DNA from: Oscillospiraceae bacterium
Lineage (GTDB): Bacteria > Bacillota > Clostridia > Oscillospirales > Oscillospiraceae
Assembly (NCBI GenBank): GCA_902774015.1
Contig: CACYHB010000004.1
Span: 210,687-274,686 of the forward strand
Length of the DNA stretch: 64,000 bases
Reading direction: 5' to 3'
Below are positions 24,234 through 52,818 of this stretch, piece after piece. Below the pieces are notes generated by a model that was not told the DNA's origin, searched no databases, and was given only the letters and a program-made list of their open reading frames with translations. Position 1 is the first letter of the stretch. Each line of letters begins with the position of its first letter. Both the position numbers and the translations under genes were made by a program.

Positions 24234-24659
24234 ATGGATAAGAAATACGATGCGCTCAAGCTGGAAAACCAGCTCTGCTTCCCGCTCTATGCCTGCTCCC
24301 GCGAGGTCATCAAGCTCTACAAGCCCTTTCTGGACGAGCTGGATCTGACCTACACCCAGTACATCGCCATGATGGTGCTCTGGGAGCACAAGTCCGTGAC
24401 GGTCAAGGAGCTGGGCCAGTATCTCTTCCTGGATTCCGGCACGCTGACGCCGCTGCTCAAGAAAATGGAGGGCAAGGGCCTCATCAGCCGCAAACGCGAC
24501 CAGGAGGACGAACGCAGCCTGATCGTGAGCCTGACCGAAGAGGGCGAGGCCATGAAGGAGAAGGCGCTGGAGGTGCCGGTCAAAATGGCCCGGTGTGTGC
24601 GCCTGGAGCCGGAGGAGGCGCAGGAGCTCTACCGTCTTCTGTACAAGCTGCTCCGATAA
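24234..24659 (+). CDS. MarR-family regulator, OhrR-like
   Basis: 141 residues with a winged helix (LTYTQYIAMMVLWEHKSVTVKELGQYLFLDSGTLTPLLKKMEGKGLISRKRDQEDERSLIVSLTEEGEA). The N-terminal LENQLCFPLYACSRE places a cysteine at the OhrR peroxide-sensing position (Cys15-type). Thus oxidation of this Cys by organic peroxide probably releases DNA. Typical OhrR genes neighbour ohr; none is visible here, so the target may lie elsewhere. Start 24234 (MDKKYD) gives family length, although AAAGG is very close (2 bases) to the ATG. Strong terminator follows. Confidence 0.88.
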   Translation: MDKKYDALKLENQLCFPLYACSREVIKLYKPFLDELDLTYTQYIAMMVLWEHKSVTVKELGQYLFLDSGTLTPLLKKMEGKGLISRKRDQEDERSLIVSLTEEGEAMKEKALEVPVKMARCVRLEPEEAQELYRLLYKLLR

Positions 24660-24673
24660 TCGAATCAAGTCTG

Positions 24674-24708
24674 ACTCCCCGTGTTTTCACAACACGGGGA
24701 GTTTTTTT
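24674..24708 (+). terminator. Intrinsic terminator after the MarR gene
   Basis: 12-bp stem ACTCCCCGTGTT/AACACGGGGAGT (24674-24685 with 24691-24702) followed by seven T. Confidence 0.93.
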
Positions 24709-24745
24709 GGCTTTTTCACAGTTATTCAATAAAGATAGCATACGC

Positions 24746-25387
24746 ATGCGCCCCCCTATCTTTCTTTTCGGTACTTGCCCGAAAAGAAAGACAGCGCCGC
24801 GCCCGGTGTAAGAAAGAAAAGGGCGCTTAGCAGATCGGGGAACACAAGGTCTGAGCGTGGGTCGCCGCCGTCCGAATGTTGGCATGCCTGGTGCGCCCGG
24901 GTGTTCGCTGCCGCTATGCAGTGCAGATCGGGACGCTCAAAAGCACGTCCCGGCGGCTCGAAAAGGTAAATCTTGCTTGTAGGGGACGGCGTCCTCGACG
25001 GCCCGCAGTTATTTACCCGGAGAGCCGCGGTTTGGAGTGTGCGGCAGTCTATGTCAGGAGTACTGGGGAGCGGCAGCGGTATGCGGAGCCGCCAGCCAAG
25101 CGTTCCTGCTTTAGCGGCGACCCCCGATCTCCCCTTAGACTCCCCGCTTCCGTGAGGAGTCCAGAGGAATTGCGGGCCGCAGCTGCCGGTGGCAGAGGCA
25201 GGCGGCACGGCATTTCCGCAGCCGTGCCATTGGCGGGCCGTCGTGAAACAGGCCAGGGAATGGCATTTGCGGCAAGGTGGGCGACAGAACCGTTTCTTTC
25301 CGCGAACAGGGAAGAAATGGTTCTTGATACGCGCAGCCTCCCACTCTGAGCATCTGTGGAAAAACCTATACGTTTTTCCACAGATGC
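24746..25387 (+). repeat. Structured dispersed element, copy A (candidate noncoding RNA)
   Basis: The 700-base gap between the MarR terminator and the AI-2E gene holds no convincing gene. It is one copy of an element seen again at 51164-51713. The first 145 bases of the two copies differ at about 12 positions. Order of parts: 12-bp hairpin (24760-24771 with 24779-24790), 6-bp GCGCCC/GGGCGC hairpin (24799-24826), a variable middle, GACTCC/GGAGTC hairpin (25138-25161), an A-only insert of about 100 bases with a GGCACGGC/GCCGTGCC hairpin (25204-25228), a long tail hairpin (25286-25324) and a 16-bp end hairpin (25350-25387) with an A-rich left and T-rich right arm. One-base indels between copies break every shared reading frame, so it is not coding. 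Confidence 0.72.
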
Positions 25388-26436
25388 ACCACGCCTTTGT
25401 CGTTGAGCTGGCTCAAAACCGCCAGCAGCACCGGAGCCAGCAGCATCCCGCCCACGCCGCAGACCCGCCATCCCACGTAGATCGCCAGCAGCGAGGCGAG
25501 GGGACTCAGACCGATCTGATCGCCCAGAAGACGCGCCTGCAGGCAGTTTCGGACCACATTCACCGCCGCCCAGCAGCCCACGAGGCCGATGGCCTGCCCT
25601 CCTCTGCCCAGCATGGCGCTGCCGGCCGCCCAAGGCAGCAGCACCGTCCCCGTGCCGAAGACGGGCAGCGCGTCCACCAGCGCGCTCAGCGCGGCCAGCG
25701 CCGGAGCGCCGCGAAAGCCCATCAGCCAAAAGGCCAGCAGCAGCTCCAGGAAGGTCAGGCCCATCAGAATCAGCTGCGTCCGCAGCAGGCCGCCGAAGCC
25801 CGCCTTCAGGTCCCGGCCGAGGCCGCTCAAACGGCGGCGCAGCCCATCCGGCAGCTGCGCCGAGAGAAAAGCGGTACTTCCGGGATAGCCCGCCGAGAGG
25901 AAATAGGTACCGAGTCCCGCCGTCACGGTGAAGAGCAGTACGTCGGGTCCGCTCCGGGCGGCCTTTCTCACGGCGCCGAGCAGCCGCTGGGACAGCTGCA
26001 GCGGCAGCGCGGTCAGCGCCTGGCTCAGACTCTCGAGCGCAGCGTCCAGATAGGCTGTCAGCTCCTCCGGCGCGCCGGCTGCGAGATGCAGGAGCTTTTC
26101 CTCCAGTCCGGCCGCCCCGGCAGCCAGCGCGCCCATAAGAGCGGGAAGCTCGCCGCCCAGCCGCGACGCGCCCGTCAGGCACCAGCCTCCCAGCGCCGTA
26201 AGCGCCCAGATCAGCACACCCAGGAGCGCCAGCGTGAGAACCGCGGCGGAAAAGCCCCGCCGCCAGCCGCGGCGCGTCAGAGCGCCGACCGCCGGCTCCA
26301 TCAGCGCCGCCAGCGCAAAAGCAATGAGAAAAGGCGCGAGCCAGGGCAGCAGAAAGCGCAGGGTGATCCACAGCCCCAACACCGTCCCCAGCGCGGAGAG
26401 GAGGCCGCGCAGCCCTTTCCTTGCAGCGTCCGACAT
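25366..26436 (-). CDS. AI-2E family permease (YtvI-like)
   Basis: 356 residues, about eight membrane helices arranged as in the AI-2E/UPF0118 family: paired N-terminal helices, a long amphipathic middle (about 95-170), the conserved GFRGAPALAALSALVDALPVFGTGTVLLPWA segment and the last pair with a Val/Leu-rich C-terminus. Sporulating Firmicutes carry a member called YtvI; others export autoinducers or act as Na+/H+ exchangers. The substrate cannot be assigned. ATG 26436 (MSDAARKG) has GGAGG 8 bases upstream. The stop codon lies inside the loop of the hairpin ending repeat copy A. Confidence 0.85.
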   Translation of the reverse strand: MSDAARKGLRGLLSALGTVLGLWITLRFLLPWLAPFLIAFALAALMEPAVGALTRRGWRRGFSAAVLTLALLGVLIWALTALGGWCLTGASRLGGELPALMGALAAGAAGLEEKLLHLAAGAPEELTAYLDAALESLSQALTALPLQLSQRLLGAVRKAARSGPDVLLFTVTAGLGTYFLSAGYPGSTAFLSAQLPDGLRRRLSGLGRDLKAGFGGLLRTQLILMGLTFLELLLAFWLMGFRGAPALAALSALVDALPVFGTGTVLLPWAAGSAMLGRGGQAIGLVGCWAAVNVVRNCLQARLLGDQIGLSPLASLLAIYVGWRVCGVGGMLLAPVLLAVLSQLNDKGVVHLWKNV

Positions 26437-49514: not shown

Positions 49515-51062
49515 ATGAGCGCATCGACAGATAAGAAAAACCGTCAGGCCGCCCGCGCAGCCGGTACGGACAAGAAGACCCTCGCCGCGCAGGAAGCGGC
49601 AAAGAAGCAGGCTCAGAGCAAGCGCCGCTGGACGATCGGCGTCATTGCGGCAGTCGTGCTGATCGCCGCCATCCTGGTGCTCAACACCGGCATCCTCTAC
49701 AAGAGCACCACCGCGCTGAACGTCGGCAGCCACAGTCTCAGCCCCGCCGAGCTCAATTACTTCTATGGCAACGAATACCGCAATCTGGTCAGCTCCTACG
49801 GCAACTACGCCGCCGCCATGGGCCTCAACACCAGCACCGACATCACCGGTCTGCGCGAACAGGACTGCCCCATGCTGGAGGACGGCACCTGGCGCGATTA
49901 TTTCCTGAATCTGGCCGAGCAGGATGCCGCACAGACCTTCGCTTTGAAGGACTACGCCGCCGAGCAGGGCATTACCCTGACCGAGGAGGAGATCGCCCAG
50001 GTGGAGTCCTCCTTTGATGGACTTGACGAGTATGCGAAGGGTCAGGGCTTTTCCGGCGCCAACGCGCTGCTTGCCATGAACTACGGCAAGGGCGTCAATA
50101 AGAGCATCGTACGCCAGGCCGGGCTGGACAGCCAGCTGGCCAGCAAGGCCTATAACCACGCCGTTGAAAACTTCGTCGTCACCGATGAGGAGAAGGCGCA
50201 GTACTACGCCGATCTCAACGGCTCCCGCGATCTGTTTGACTATCTGGTATACGACGTGAAGGGCGCTGTGGAAGAGGGCGCCGAGGCCGCCACCGAGCAG
50301 GCTCTGATGGAGGCCCGCGCAACCGCCGAGGCCATCTCCGCCGCCTATCAGGACGGCGATGATATTGAGGACATCACCGAGCGCTTCGAGGCCGCTGTGG
50401 ATTCCCAGACCGGCGAGACCGGCACGGAAAAGCCCACGCTGCGCCGCCGCATCACCGGCAGCGGCCTGACCGCCGATTACAGCCCCTGGCTCATGGGCGA
50501 CCGCACCGAGGGCGACGTGACCGTGATCGCCGATTCCGACAACAGCGGCACTTCCGTGCTGGTGTTCCTCTCCCGCGACGATAACCACTACGCCACCGCC
50601 AACGTGCGCCATATCCTGGTGAAGGCCGAGGCGGACGCGGACGGCAATTACACGGACGAGGCCAAGGCCGCGGCCAAAGCCCGCGCCGAGGAGATCCTGG
50701 CCGAGTACGAGGCCGGCGAGAAGACCGAGGCGAGCTTTGCCGCCCTGGCGGAGCAGTACTCCGAGGACGCAGGCTCCAACACGAACGGCGGCCTGTATGA
50801 GAACGTGCCCAAGGGACAGATGGTGGAAGAGTTCGAGGCTTTCTGTTTTGCCGGCCATAAGCCGGGCGACACCGCCATCGTTTACGGTGAGAGCGGCAGC
50901 TATGCGGGCTACCACGTGATGTATTACGTGGGCGAGGGCGATCTTTACAGCAACGTCATCGCCGAAAACGCCATCCGCAGCGATAACGCCAGTGCCTGGC
51001 TGACCGATCTGCTGCTCCCCTACAATCCGGCCGAGACTTTCTGGACCCGTCTGGTCGGCTGA
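49515..51062 (+). CDS. Membrane-anchored peptidyl-prolyl isomerase, PrsA/SurA-like
   Basis: 515 residues: a basic Ala/Lys-rich N-terminal cytoplasmic part (1-38), one membrane helix (about 40-58), a SurA_N-like helical region (60-260) and a parvulin-type rotamase domain (about 355-450: NVRHILVKAEADADGNY, FAALAEQYSEDAGSNTNGGLYENVPKGQMVEEFEAF). It helps fold exported proteins outside the membrane. There is no lipobox, unlike classical PrsA, so it is held by an uncleaved helix. Followed by a strong terminator, then repeat copy B. Confidence 0.86.
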   Translation: MSASTDKKNRQAARAAGTDKKTLAAQEAAKKQAQSKRRWTIGVIAAVVLIAAILVLNTGILYKSTTALNVGSHSLSPAELNYFYGNEYRNLVSSYGNYAAAMGLNTSTDITGLREQDCPMLEDGTWRDYFLNLAEQDAAQTFALKDYAAEQGITLTEEEIAQVESSFDGLDEYAKGQGFSGANALLAMNYGKGVNKSIVRQAGLDSQLASKAYNHAVENFVVTDEEKAQYYADLNGSRDLFDYLVYDVKGAVEEGAEAATEQALMEARATAEAISAAYQDGDDIEDITERFEAAVDSQTGETGTEKPTLRRRITGSGLTADYSPWLMGDRTEGDVTVIADSDNSGTSVLVFLSRDDNHYATANVRHILVKAEADADGNYTDEAKAAAKARAEEILAEYEAGEKTEASFAALAEQYSEDAGSNTNGGLYENVPKGQMVEEFEAFCFAGHKPGDTAIVYGESGSYAGYHVMYYVGEGDLYSNVIAENAIRSDNASAWLTDLLLPYNPAETFWTRLVG

Positions 51063-51075
51063 TTCCGAACGCAGC

Positions 51076-51108
51076 GCAGCTGCCCCCATGGGGGCAGCTG
51101 CTTTTTTT
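51076..51108 (+). terminator. Terminator after the foldase gene
   Basis: 12-bp stem GCAGCTGCCCCC/GGGGGCAGCTGC (51076-51087 with 51090-51101), then seven T. Confidence 0.93.
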
Positions 51109-51163
51109 CTTTCTCATAAGTATACTATTATCTCCAACATGTTCAGAGAGACGACTCTGCATG

Positions 51164-51713
51164 ATGCGCCCCCCTGTCTTTCTTTTCGGTTCTTGCCCGA
51201 AAAGAAAGACTGCGCCGCGCCCGGTGTAAGAAAGAAAAGGGCGCTTGTCAGAATGGGCAGCATAAGGTCTGATCGCGGGTCGCCGCCGTCCGAATGTTGG
51301 CATGCCAGGTTGCCCCGGGTGTCCGCTGCCGCTATGCTGTACAGCACGAGCGCTTGGAAAATCACCTCCCGGCGGCTCGGCTCTCGGCAGTCACGCTTGC
51401 TGGGACCGGCGTCCCCGACCGCCCGCAGTGATCCACCCGACGAGCCGCGGCTGGGAGCGGGCAGCTGTCTTCGTCAGAAGTGCCGGGGAGCGGCAGCGGT
51501 ATGCGGAGCCACTAACCACGCGTCTCTGCATCCGCGGCGACCCCGGATCTGCCCTTAGACTCCCCTCTTATTCGAGGGGTCAAGGGGATTCTTCCCCTTG
51601 TTGCCTTTCTTTGGCATCAAAAACCGTTTCTTTCCCCAATGGGAAAGAAATGGGTTTTGCTTTGCGCAGCTTACCGCCTTTGAGCGGTCGAGAAAAAAAG
51701 TATAGTTTTTTTC
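51164..51713 (+). repeat. Structured dispersed element, copy B (candidate noncoding RNA)
   Basis: Second copy of the element at 24746; it lies in a 754-base gap without a convincing gene, just after a terminator, as copy A does. It has the same 5' hairpins (CTTTCTTTTCGG with CCGAAAAGAAAG; GCGCCC with GGGCGC), then CCCCTC/GAGGGG at the place of GACTCC/GGAGTC in A, the tail hairpin (51620-51658) and an end hairpin GAAAAAAA/TTTTTTTC (51692-51713). In the tail hairpin A has G25287-C25323 where B has A51621-T51657, a compensatory change. The 100-base insert of A is missing, and CAAGGGG/CCCCTTG (51581-51600) stands instead. Confidence 0.72.
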
Positions 51714-51716
51714 GCG

Positions 51717-51742
51717 GGCCCCGGGAACCTTTTCCCGGGGCC
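51717..51742 (+). terminator. 10-bp GC hairpin after repeat copy B
   Basis: GGCCCCGGGA (51717-51726) with TCCCGGGGCC (51733-51742). It follows the T-run closing copy B, so may be a second termination stem. Confidence 0.6.
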
Positions 51743-51816
51743 TGCGTCTCATTTCTCAAGGACCGGTGCTTTCGGGCGCCGATCATACAAAAATGGACAA
51801 CAGGGAGGTTTCTCTC

Positions 51817-52818
51817 ATGAAAAAGATCGTATCGCTGCTGCTTGTTCTGCTGCTGGCGCTCTCGCTTTGCGCCTGCGGCAGCCGGAGCCCGAAGGACGCA
51901 GCACAGGCGTCCTCGGCCTCGACATCCTACTATGCCGACTATGACGCCGCGGAAGCCGCAGTCTATGCGGAGGAGCCCGCCGCCGGCTTCGCCATGAGCA
52001 ACGCCGCCGCCAAGACCGAGGGCGGGAGCGACAGGGAAGACACGCCGGACGGAAACCCGGAAAAGATCATCTACTCCGCGGACGTGACCGTGGAGACCAC
52101 CGATTTTGACGGCAGCCTGGCCAAAATCGAGGAGCTGCTGGCATCCTGCGGCGGCTGGGTGGAGTCCAGCAGCGTCAACGGCGCGAACTTCTACCAGAAG
52201 TCGCGTGGCTACGGCGGCACGCGCAGCGCCAGCTTCACCCTGCGCATCCCCAGCGACCGCTTCGACGCGCTGATGAACTCCCTCTCTTCCCTCGGCAATG
52301 TTCCCTACACCCATACCTATACCGAAAACGTCACCAGCCAGTACTACGACACCGAGGCCCACATGAAGGCCTACCAGACCCAGGAGGCCCGACTGCTGGA
52401 GATGATGGAGAAGGCCGAGACCGTGGAGGACATCGTGATCCTGGAGGATCGCCTCACCGAGCTGCGCTGGCACATCGAGTCCCTGCAGTCCACGCTCAAA
52501 AACTGGGACCGCCGGGTCAGCTACAGCAGCGTCTCCCTGAGCCTGCAGGAGGTGCAGGAGTACACCCCCGAGGCGGAGATCCGCCTCAGCTACGGCCAGC
52601 GCCTCTGGCGCAGCCTGAAGGACGGCCTGACAGGCGTGGCGGTATTCTTTGAAGAGCTGCTGATCTGGTTCGTCGGCGCGCTGCCCACGCTGGTCATCCT
52701 GGCCGCGCTGGTGCTGATCCTGCGGCTGCCGGTGAAAAAGGCACTCGCCCGCCGCCGGGAAAAGAAAGCGGAAAAGAAGGCCGAAAAGAAAGCCGCCGCT
52801 GCATCGAAAGCAGAGTAA
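51817..52818 (+). CDS. DUF4349 lipoprotein
   Basis: 333 residues. Signal ends at lipobox Cys20 (LSLCAC), then a Ser/Ala/acidic linker to about 85. The DUF4349 domain runs from about 87 (KIIYSADVTVETTDFDGSLAKIEELLASCGGWVESSSV) through a beta part (TLRIPSDRFDALMNSL) and a coiled coil (about 185-235, KAYQTQEARLLEMMEKAETVEDIVILEDRLTELRWHIESLQSTL). One membrane helix (about 285-308) and a Lys/Glu-rich tail follow. So it is anchored at both ends, an envelope protein of unknown role. GGGAGG 8 bases before ATG 51817. Confidence 0.87.
   Translation: MKKIVSLLLVLLLALSLCACGSRSPKDAAQASSASTSYYADYDAAEAAVYAEEPAAGFAMSNAAAKTEGGSDREDTPDGNPEKIIYSADVTVETTDFDGSLAKIEELLASCGGWVESSSVNGANFYQKSRGYGGTRSASFTLRIPSDRFDALMNSLSSLGNVPYTHTYTENVTSQYYDTEAHMKAYQTQEARLLEMMEKAETVEDIVILEDRLTELRWHIESLQSTLKNWDRRVSYSSVSLSLQEVQEYTPEAEIRLSYGQRLWRSLKDGLTGVAVFFEELLIWFVGALPTLVILAALVLILRLPVKKALARRREKKAEKKAEKKAAAASKAE

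Follow-up and report, generated by a model that had tools for sequence, protein, structure and literature searches.

REP/BIME repeats, which go with RAYT, are hairpins in inverted pairs that lie between genes in a mosaic arrangement, and RUP and Correia are TA-type MITEs linked to IS630-like transposases, the ends of Correia being of the TATA type. According to PMC10969869, prokaryotic MITEs are characterised by terminal inverted repeats (TIRs), target duplications (TSDs) in the younger copies, small size, absence of a transposase gene, many copies and a related autonomous element with the same ends, and they are typically, hence not strictly by definition, shorter than 500 bp and AT-rich. According to PMC3049150, the BOX elements of Streptococcus pneumoniae (boxA/B/C) are modular and bounded by TIRs, produce TSDs when they insert, can form stem-loops and are 67–637 bp long; PMC10969869 describes them as clustering with other repeats, within which they also lie inserted. 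The same sources give a length of ~107 bp for RUP (PMC3049150) and 204 bp for Correia (PMC10969869).

Here we analyse a repeat family represented by copies A and B in the window, the whole 64,000-nt stretch of DNA under study (62.2% GC). Set against the MITE description of PMC10969869, the family has TIRs (17 of 47 end pairs), small size, many copies and no Pfam transposase in its longest frame, whereas A and B both exceed 500 bp and are not AT-rich (Table 1). Like BOX elements as described in those sources, it is modular, TIR-bounded and stem-loop forming, a likeness of description without sequence comparison, but its ends are interchangeable and its core carries strongly conserved blocks. 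With RUP and Correia it shares small size, intergenic position, many copies, TIR boundaries and TA/TATA-type ends; unlike these repeats at the lengths quoted, it spans ~350–930 bp, and the genome from which the window comes (the source genome) has no DDE_3 gene. Its hairpins in inverted pairs, intergenic position and mosaic build resemble REP/BIME, whereas it has long inverted repeats with TATA ends, and these ends were not found beside the Y1 genes examined.

Results

An earlier note on the window had described A and B as two copies of a structured element and had preferred an independently transcribed structured RNA to a non-autonomous repeat. The A/B repeat is real but was misread. Over the first 145 bases, 132 are identical (91%, close to the ~90 percent first given), and in the stretch that follows 217 of 272 aligned bases are identical, with 14 gap positions. 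The exchange of G25287/C25323 for A51621/T51657 was confirmed at these positions, and the differing bases of the middle hairpin were located in A (GACTCC at 25138, GGAGTC at 25156) and in B (CCCCTC at 51562, GAGGGG at 51574). The count of two did not hold. Copy A as a query gave 77 matches in the source genome (2.78 Mb, 88 contigs). Sorted by hand, these make up 40 loci of a single element family, with A and B among them; the count is rough in both directions, with 40 of 70 first-look candidates scored, loci at contig ends that may be halves of one copy, two copies in the single locus L034 and only an internal module at L065. Contigs begin or end in or beside copies at L037, L039, L059, L060, L066, L067 and L068, so the family probably breaks the assembly, leaving the copy number unsure.

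Copies also occur in relatives. The left end of B matched 23 of 102 genomes of the genus, and the core matched 21 of 102, in many cases over the ~30 bases of a nested repeat alone; core matches longer than 100 bases were confined to the source genome and G113, G084, G067, G092 and G079. The core is thus spread more narrowly than the ends. When 511 bases of one copy (L031) were compared with 394 genomes of the order, two candidates being scored per genome, long matches occurred in the source genome only, and 11 other genomes gave short matches of at most 47 bits. Three MAGs labelled Ruminococcaceae or Eubacteriales together contained five exact occurrences of the left-hairpin pattern. Judged on titles and abstract openings, no publication was recognised as describing this family, which weakly suggests that it is unpublished.

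The element boundaries differ from those first assumed, as the true left end lies ~43 bases outside the earlier start, and the TIRs that had been reported absent lie beyond that start. The outer stretch of the left end is conserved, starting with TATA and finishing with CTGCGTA, and its inverted counterpart follows the right hairpin. In a test of the outer 50 bases of 47 end pairs from the source and related genomes (135 of 139 ends anchored, 94 of those paired), the mean inverted-repeat score was 16.4, the controls being lower at 11.2 (shuffled sequences), 11.3 (the adjoining 50 bases on the outside) and 12.0 (direct orientation). Singly, 17 of the 47 pairs reached p≤0.05, with ~2 expected, and the other 30 were not significant; A gave a borderline p of 0.045. 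TATA stands at one fixed distance from an anchor motif in 8 of 60 left ends and 8 of 40 right ends carrying that motif, which is present in 60 of 66 left and 40 of 53 right ends, and a single TATA is common to adjoining copies at L034 and L059. At the family level, the elements therefore have degenerate terminal inverted repeats ending in TATA. Among 49 end pairs no more than 1200 bp apart, the span is 349–934 bp.

Table 1. Parts of copies A and B, in window coordinates.
Feature	Position	Strand	Basis or remark
Copy B, whole element	51121..51704	+	584 bp, 58.6% GC; ends TATAC...GTATA; G113 has the flanks without the element
B left terminal inverted repeat	51121..51165	+	End model; TIR test: family significant, B by itself p 0.135
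B left end hairpin and flank	51166..51220	+	Fold, covariation
B inner A-rich repeat, AAGAAAGAAAAGGGCGCTT	51228..51246	+	Identical in A
B foldback core	51255..51565	+	Long arms 51255-51286 / 51534-51565
B core conserved blocks	51280, 51371, 51442, 51488, 51552	+	Alignment
B right end hairpin	51618..51660	+	End alignment, fold
B right terminal inverted repeat, ending AAAAAAAGTATA	51661..51704	+	End alignment
Copy A, whole element	24712..25370	+	~660 bp, 59.3% GC; left boundary degenerate, unsure by ~10 bases
A left end hairpin and flank	24748..24802	+	Fold, covariation
A inner A-rich repeat	24810..24828	+	Same as in B
A foldback core	24836..25146	+	Blocks at 24862, 24904, 24952, 25022, 25068, 25110, 25132
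REP-like GTAG plus hairpin, nested in A core	24979..25003	+	Pattern match; gapped in L036, L045, L046, L047, L048
Optional module	25166..25285	+	In A and some others (e.g. L037, L042, L043); lacking in B
A right end hairpin	25286..25324	+	Fold
A right terminal inverted repeat	25325..25370	+	TATAG in it provides the TAG stop for the minus-strand AI-2E transporter gene
Host coding DNA beyond the element (final codons of the AI-2E transporter gene)	25371..25387	-	Complementary to the element's end

Comparison with related genomes revealed empty sites. At the A locus of G084 and G073, the terminator directly adjoins the end of the AI-2E transporter gene, with no element between them. Hairpins with a T run do precede both copies (24673–24703 and 51076–51101), as the earlier note had it, and both lie outside the element. 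In the source genome, the end of A supplies the TAG stop of the transporter gene (25366–25368), and 25369–25387 are codons of that gene on the minus strand. The complementarity of the end hairpin with its TATA loop is likewise genuine, two 19-base arms (25350–25387) being 95% complementary, but the hairpin does not belong to the element as such: it joins the right repeat to host coding DNA, which forms its right arm, and here the right end of A departs from the other copies. This altered end most likely arose by template-switch correction of a quasi-palindrome, and the predicted hairpin may act as a bidirectional terminator.

At the A locus, G113 carries an element in the opposite orientation (L166, G113:C26:12400-14800), the end of which likewise gives the TAG stop. 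We considered whether L166 is A inverted in place and rejected this, as its core is 66% identical to A versus 73.5% to L047 and 72–74% to four other G113 copies. The tree places A in a well supported group of 18 rows that includes 14 other copies of the source genome and none of G113; the remaining three rows come from G067 and G092, and four copies of the source genome, L047 among them, stay outside. An independent insertion therefore fits better, and by sequence similarity and tree the spot was probably hit twice; the site after the transporter gene is possibly an insertion hot spot, used in two species in opposite orientations.

The B locus is empty in G113, G067, G092 and G114, the site being too diverged for base-level work. 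A closer view came from L058, which is empty in G113, G084 and G073 and lies before the start of a gene that is conserved throughout the genus. The empty site reads AAGTATAATCC in G113 and AAAGTATACCC in G084, and the filled site in the source genome reads AAAAGTATA-element-CCTATA-CTCC, such that the one TATA of the empty site has become a TATA at both junctions while the flanking gene starts were kept. For this one locus (the A and B sites being too diverged), target duplications of 2 and 4 bases are indistinguishable because the element ends contain TA themselves. The L058 element (~1425-1909 of G000:C11) lies between a TATAAT-like stretch, noticed by eye, and the start codon of the conserved gene, where the mRNA may carry a folded leader of ~480 bases.

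The family also exchanges parts. Most elements combine a left with a right end; left-left elements occur at L182 and L220, and right-right elements at L034, L037, L048 and, weakly (37 bits), at L045. Part of the core stands reversed beside right ends at L034, L041, L051, L055 and L056, and also at L037 and L043, with a module in between. The core model matches its own reverse complement, for example with 31 bits in B and 39 bits in L037, and the inner A-rich repeat of B lies near the points that join core pieces in either orientation. These arrangements make each element a pair of related inverted arms between which parts are exchanged.

A REP-like repeat made of GTAG and a hairpin (GTAGGGG..GTC..GAC..CC) lies within the core of A and of several other copies. 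The pattern occurs in 37 of 403 loci, also at L263, L266, L294, L391, L394, L399 and others, with L283, L287, L290 and L294 outside the genus. It showed no link to Y1 genes (3 of 50 Y1 loci versus 34 of 353 others). The longest open frame within the elements has 201 aa, and the Pfam scan, which covered this frame (~200 residues) and one of 139 aa, gave no match for its ~200 residues. In G076 and G088 the longest elements occupy comparable positions (L211 1253-1672 and L212 1264-1683, minus strand) and enclose the 139-aa frame, which looks by eye like a small membrane protein and had nothing credible in Pfam (best E 0.04); it is possibly cargo.

Taken together, the family-level inverted repeats, the empty sites, the TATA at both L058 junctions, the interchangeable ends and the ~40 loci lead us to conclude that A and B very probably belong to a family of non-autonomous, MITE-like transposable elements, best read as hairpin-ended, modular and directed to TA/TATA targets. 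The non-autonomous repeat that the earlier note had held as its alternative is thus supported by the number of loci, the inverted repeats, the TA/TATA insertion and the empty sites.

The RNA explanation treats the family as a multi-copy noncoding RNA gene, read from left to right into a transcript in which the core helices are folded and the ends serve as processing signals or terminators. Its attraction lies in conserved core blocks that form nested helices, in very stable folding and in the right end hairpin of B (51624–51653), which, as had been noted, scores as terminator-like and does so in both directions (six terminator-like sites in 51000–51830 versus 1.1 expected). Against it, B folds equally well on both strands (z relative to shuffles: −6.9, plus strand; −7.6, minus strand), pointing to palindromic DNA rather than one RNA. 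A search around A and B detected no sigma-70-like site, and Rfam gave zero families at the gathering score across the whole window and, at a relaxed threshold in 24600–25500, three weak hits (best E 0.054) and nothing credible.

Covariation proved to be present in the left hairpin and no better than shuffles in the core. For 19 copies and 41 predicted pairs of the core, the value was 0.100 versus 0.097 after shuffling (124 of 500 shuffles as high), and 96.8% of cells were paired versus 96.5%, the main helices hardly varying. For the left hairpin (20 of 77 left ends, hand-chosen, 19 distinct), it was 0.105 versus 0.036, with 12 cells changed on both sides versus 4.4, neither reached in any of 500 shuffles; two of the five measures, pairs changed on both sides (3 versus 2.5) and pair types (4 versus 3.9), were not above shuffles. 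RNA helices normally pass through G-U. Among the 20 copies, no one-sided standard change occurred, and the changes are Watson–Crick swaps, as expected of a DNA palindrome corrected as a unit, so that the covariation of the left hairpin is equally expected of a DNA palindrome.

In a wider count of 51 distinct left hairpins, 8 G-T and 23 A-C cells occur, most of them next to the loop or at the base of the stem. With both ends read from outside to inside, odd pairs amounted to 47 A-C and 17 G-U (the sum of three classes over 88 distinct hairpins, positions beside the stem included), a balance from which no one transcript benefits at both ends. Within the core, the minor cells at Watson–Crick pairs favoured the plus strand, with 75 G-U and 27 A-C in the plus-strand structure versus 23 and 33 in that of the minus strand, and the pair table as a whole held 91 G-U and 21 A-C cells, 56 of the G-U cells standing in two columns in which G-U is commonest. 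This wobble bias does no more than hint at a plus-strand RNA, because the cells share ancestry and are not independent. A hand count of the predicted helices P1–P3 (excluding P4 and columns 83–262) gave 16 G-U and 9 A-C, not clearly biased. Moreover, with arms swapped or duplicated, no fixed RNA sequence is kept, and relatives have empty sites. The structured RNA preferred in the earlier note is left unsupported by promoter, Rfam and core covariation alike; it is improbable that the element is a dedicated RNA gene, whether with its ends as processing signals or as terminators.

To find a mobilising enzyme, we searched three transposase families. DDE_3 (IS630) is absent from the source genome; 17 of the 102 genomes in the genus contain it, and only four of these 17 (G082, G083, G076 and G088) have the left end. 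DDE_Tnp_1 occurs in 40 of 102 genomes, with one in the source genome, and Y1_Tnp in 56 of 102, with four matches in the source genome, the weaker of which may be RAYT-like. End models applied to 54 DDE loci (20 of 23 DDE_3 matches and 33 of 82 DDE_Tnp_1 matches, one taken twice) returned nothing convincing, with best E values of 0.017 and 0.046 in two sets, and at 50 Y1 loci, a part of the Y1 matches, none reached E≤0.01. The loci examined for all three candidate partners thus lacked element ends. Two IS630-family matches in the genus (L240 and L244) are surrounded by inverted repeats, TATACTATTCTTC and TACTAATTTTC, that resemble the element start TATACTATTATCTC by eye over the first 9–12 bases, a likeness short enough to be chance, whereas the whole ends do not match.

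The four Y1_Tnp matches of the source genome, the presence of that family in over half of the genus and the inverted pairs of hairpins near both ends would suit a REP/BIME-like element mobilised by a RAYT (Y1) single-strand transposase. This is highly improbable in view of the 50 Y1 loci and of the TATA inverted repeats and TA/TATA insertion; REPs are not known to have these two features. A passive family of long palindromes, spread by recombination or template switching alone with no transposase, would accommodate the arm swapping, the complementarity of A's altered right end to its host flank and the lack of a partner in the families searched, but is highly improbable given the inverted repeats at the ends and L058, with its TATA at both junctions, its empty site and the flanking gene starts kept.

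The interior of the element is conserved in blocks. In an alignment of 59 rows (the 19 of alignment A1 plus 40 added pieces), 71 block columns had a mean pairwise identity of 0.88 versus 0.57 in the other 225, and between the source genome and other genomes the values were 0.87 for the blocks and 0.54 for the remaining columns. The blocks were hand-picked after viewing the alignment; a window test independent of that choice gave a best 9-column window of 0.951, above all 1000 column shuffles (maximum 0.943). From this pattern of identity, it seems likeliest that something reads the conserved blocks.

Discussion

Our analysis favours a MITE-like element family whose arm comprises, from outside to inside, a TATA-ended inverted repeat of ~45 bases, a stem-loop, the A-rich inner repeat and part of the foldback core. 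A transposase supplied in trans would recognise both ends, cut next to TA and insert the DNA into A/T-rich intergenic spots; a Tc1/mariner- or IS630-like enzyme, although none was found in the source genome, would fit the TATA ends best. Template switching within the palindromes would keep the hairpins matched and swap the arms, and transcriptional effects of the element, bidirectional termination among them, would be incidental. The anatomy appears to work like that of BOX/RUP/Correia-type repeats, a resemblance that stops short of showing membership among IS630-derived elements.

Conservation of internal blocks is not needed by a plain MITE and counts against this reading, and swappable arms together with a conserved interior are unusual for elements of this kind. 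We therefore mention, as a tentative and rather unlikely idea, a two-armed class of mobile element in which the arms would be swappable modules and the blocks would be read by trans-acting machinery, either as repeated subterminal protein sites or as a structured plus-strand RNA required for mobilisation. If true, this would be a transposon with a functional interior that is free of genes.

The very probable MITE-like nature of the family turns a candidate RNA into mobile DNA occupying dozens of sites in a genus that has received little study. It also advises caution, since DNA palindromes also covary and compensatory changes by themselves are therefore no proof of an RNA. The missing transposase offers a concrete target, and the interchangeable arms and conserved interior offer a way to study how repeats without genes stay mobile.
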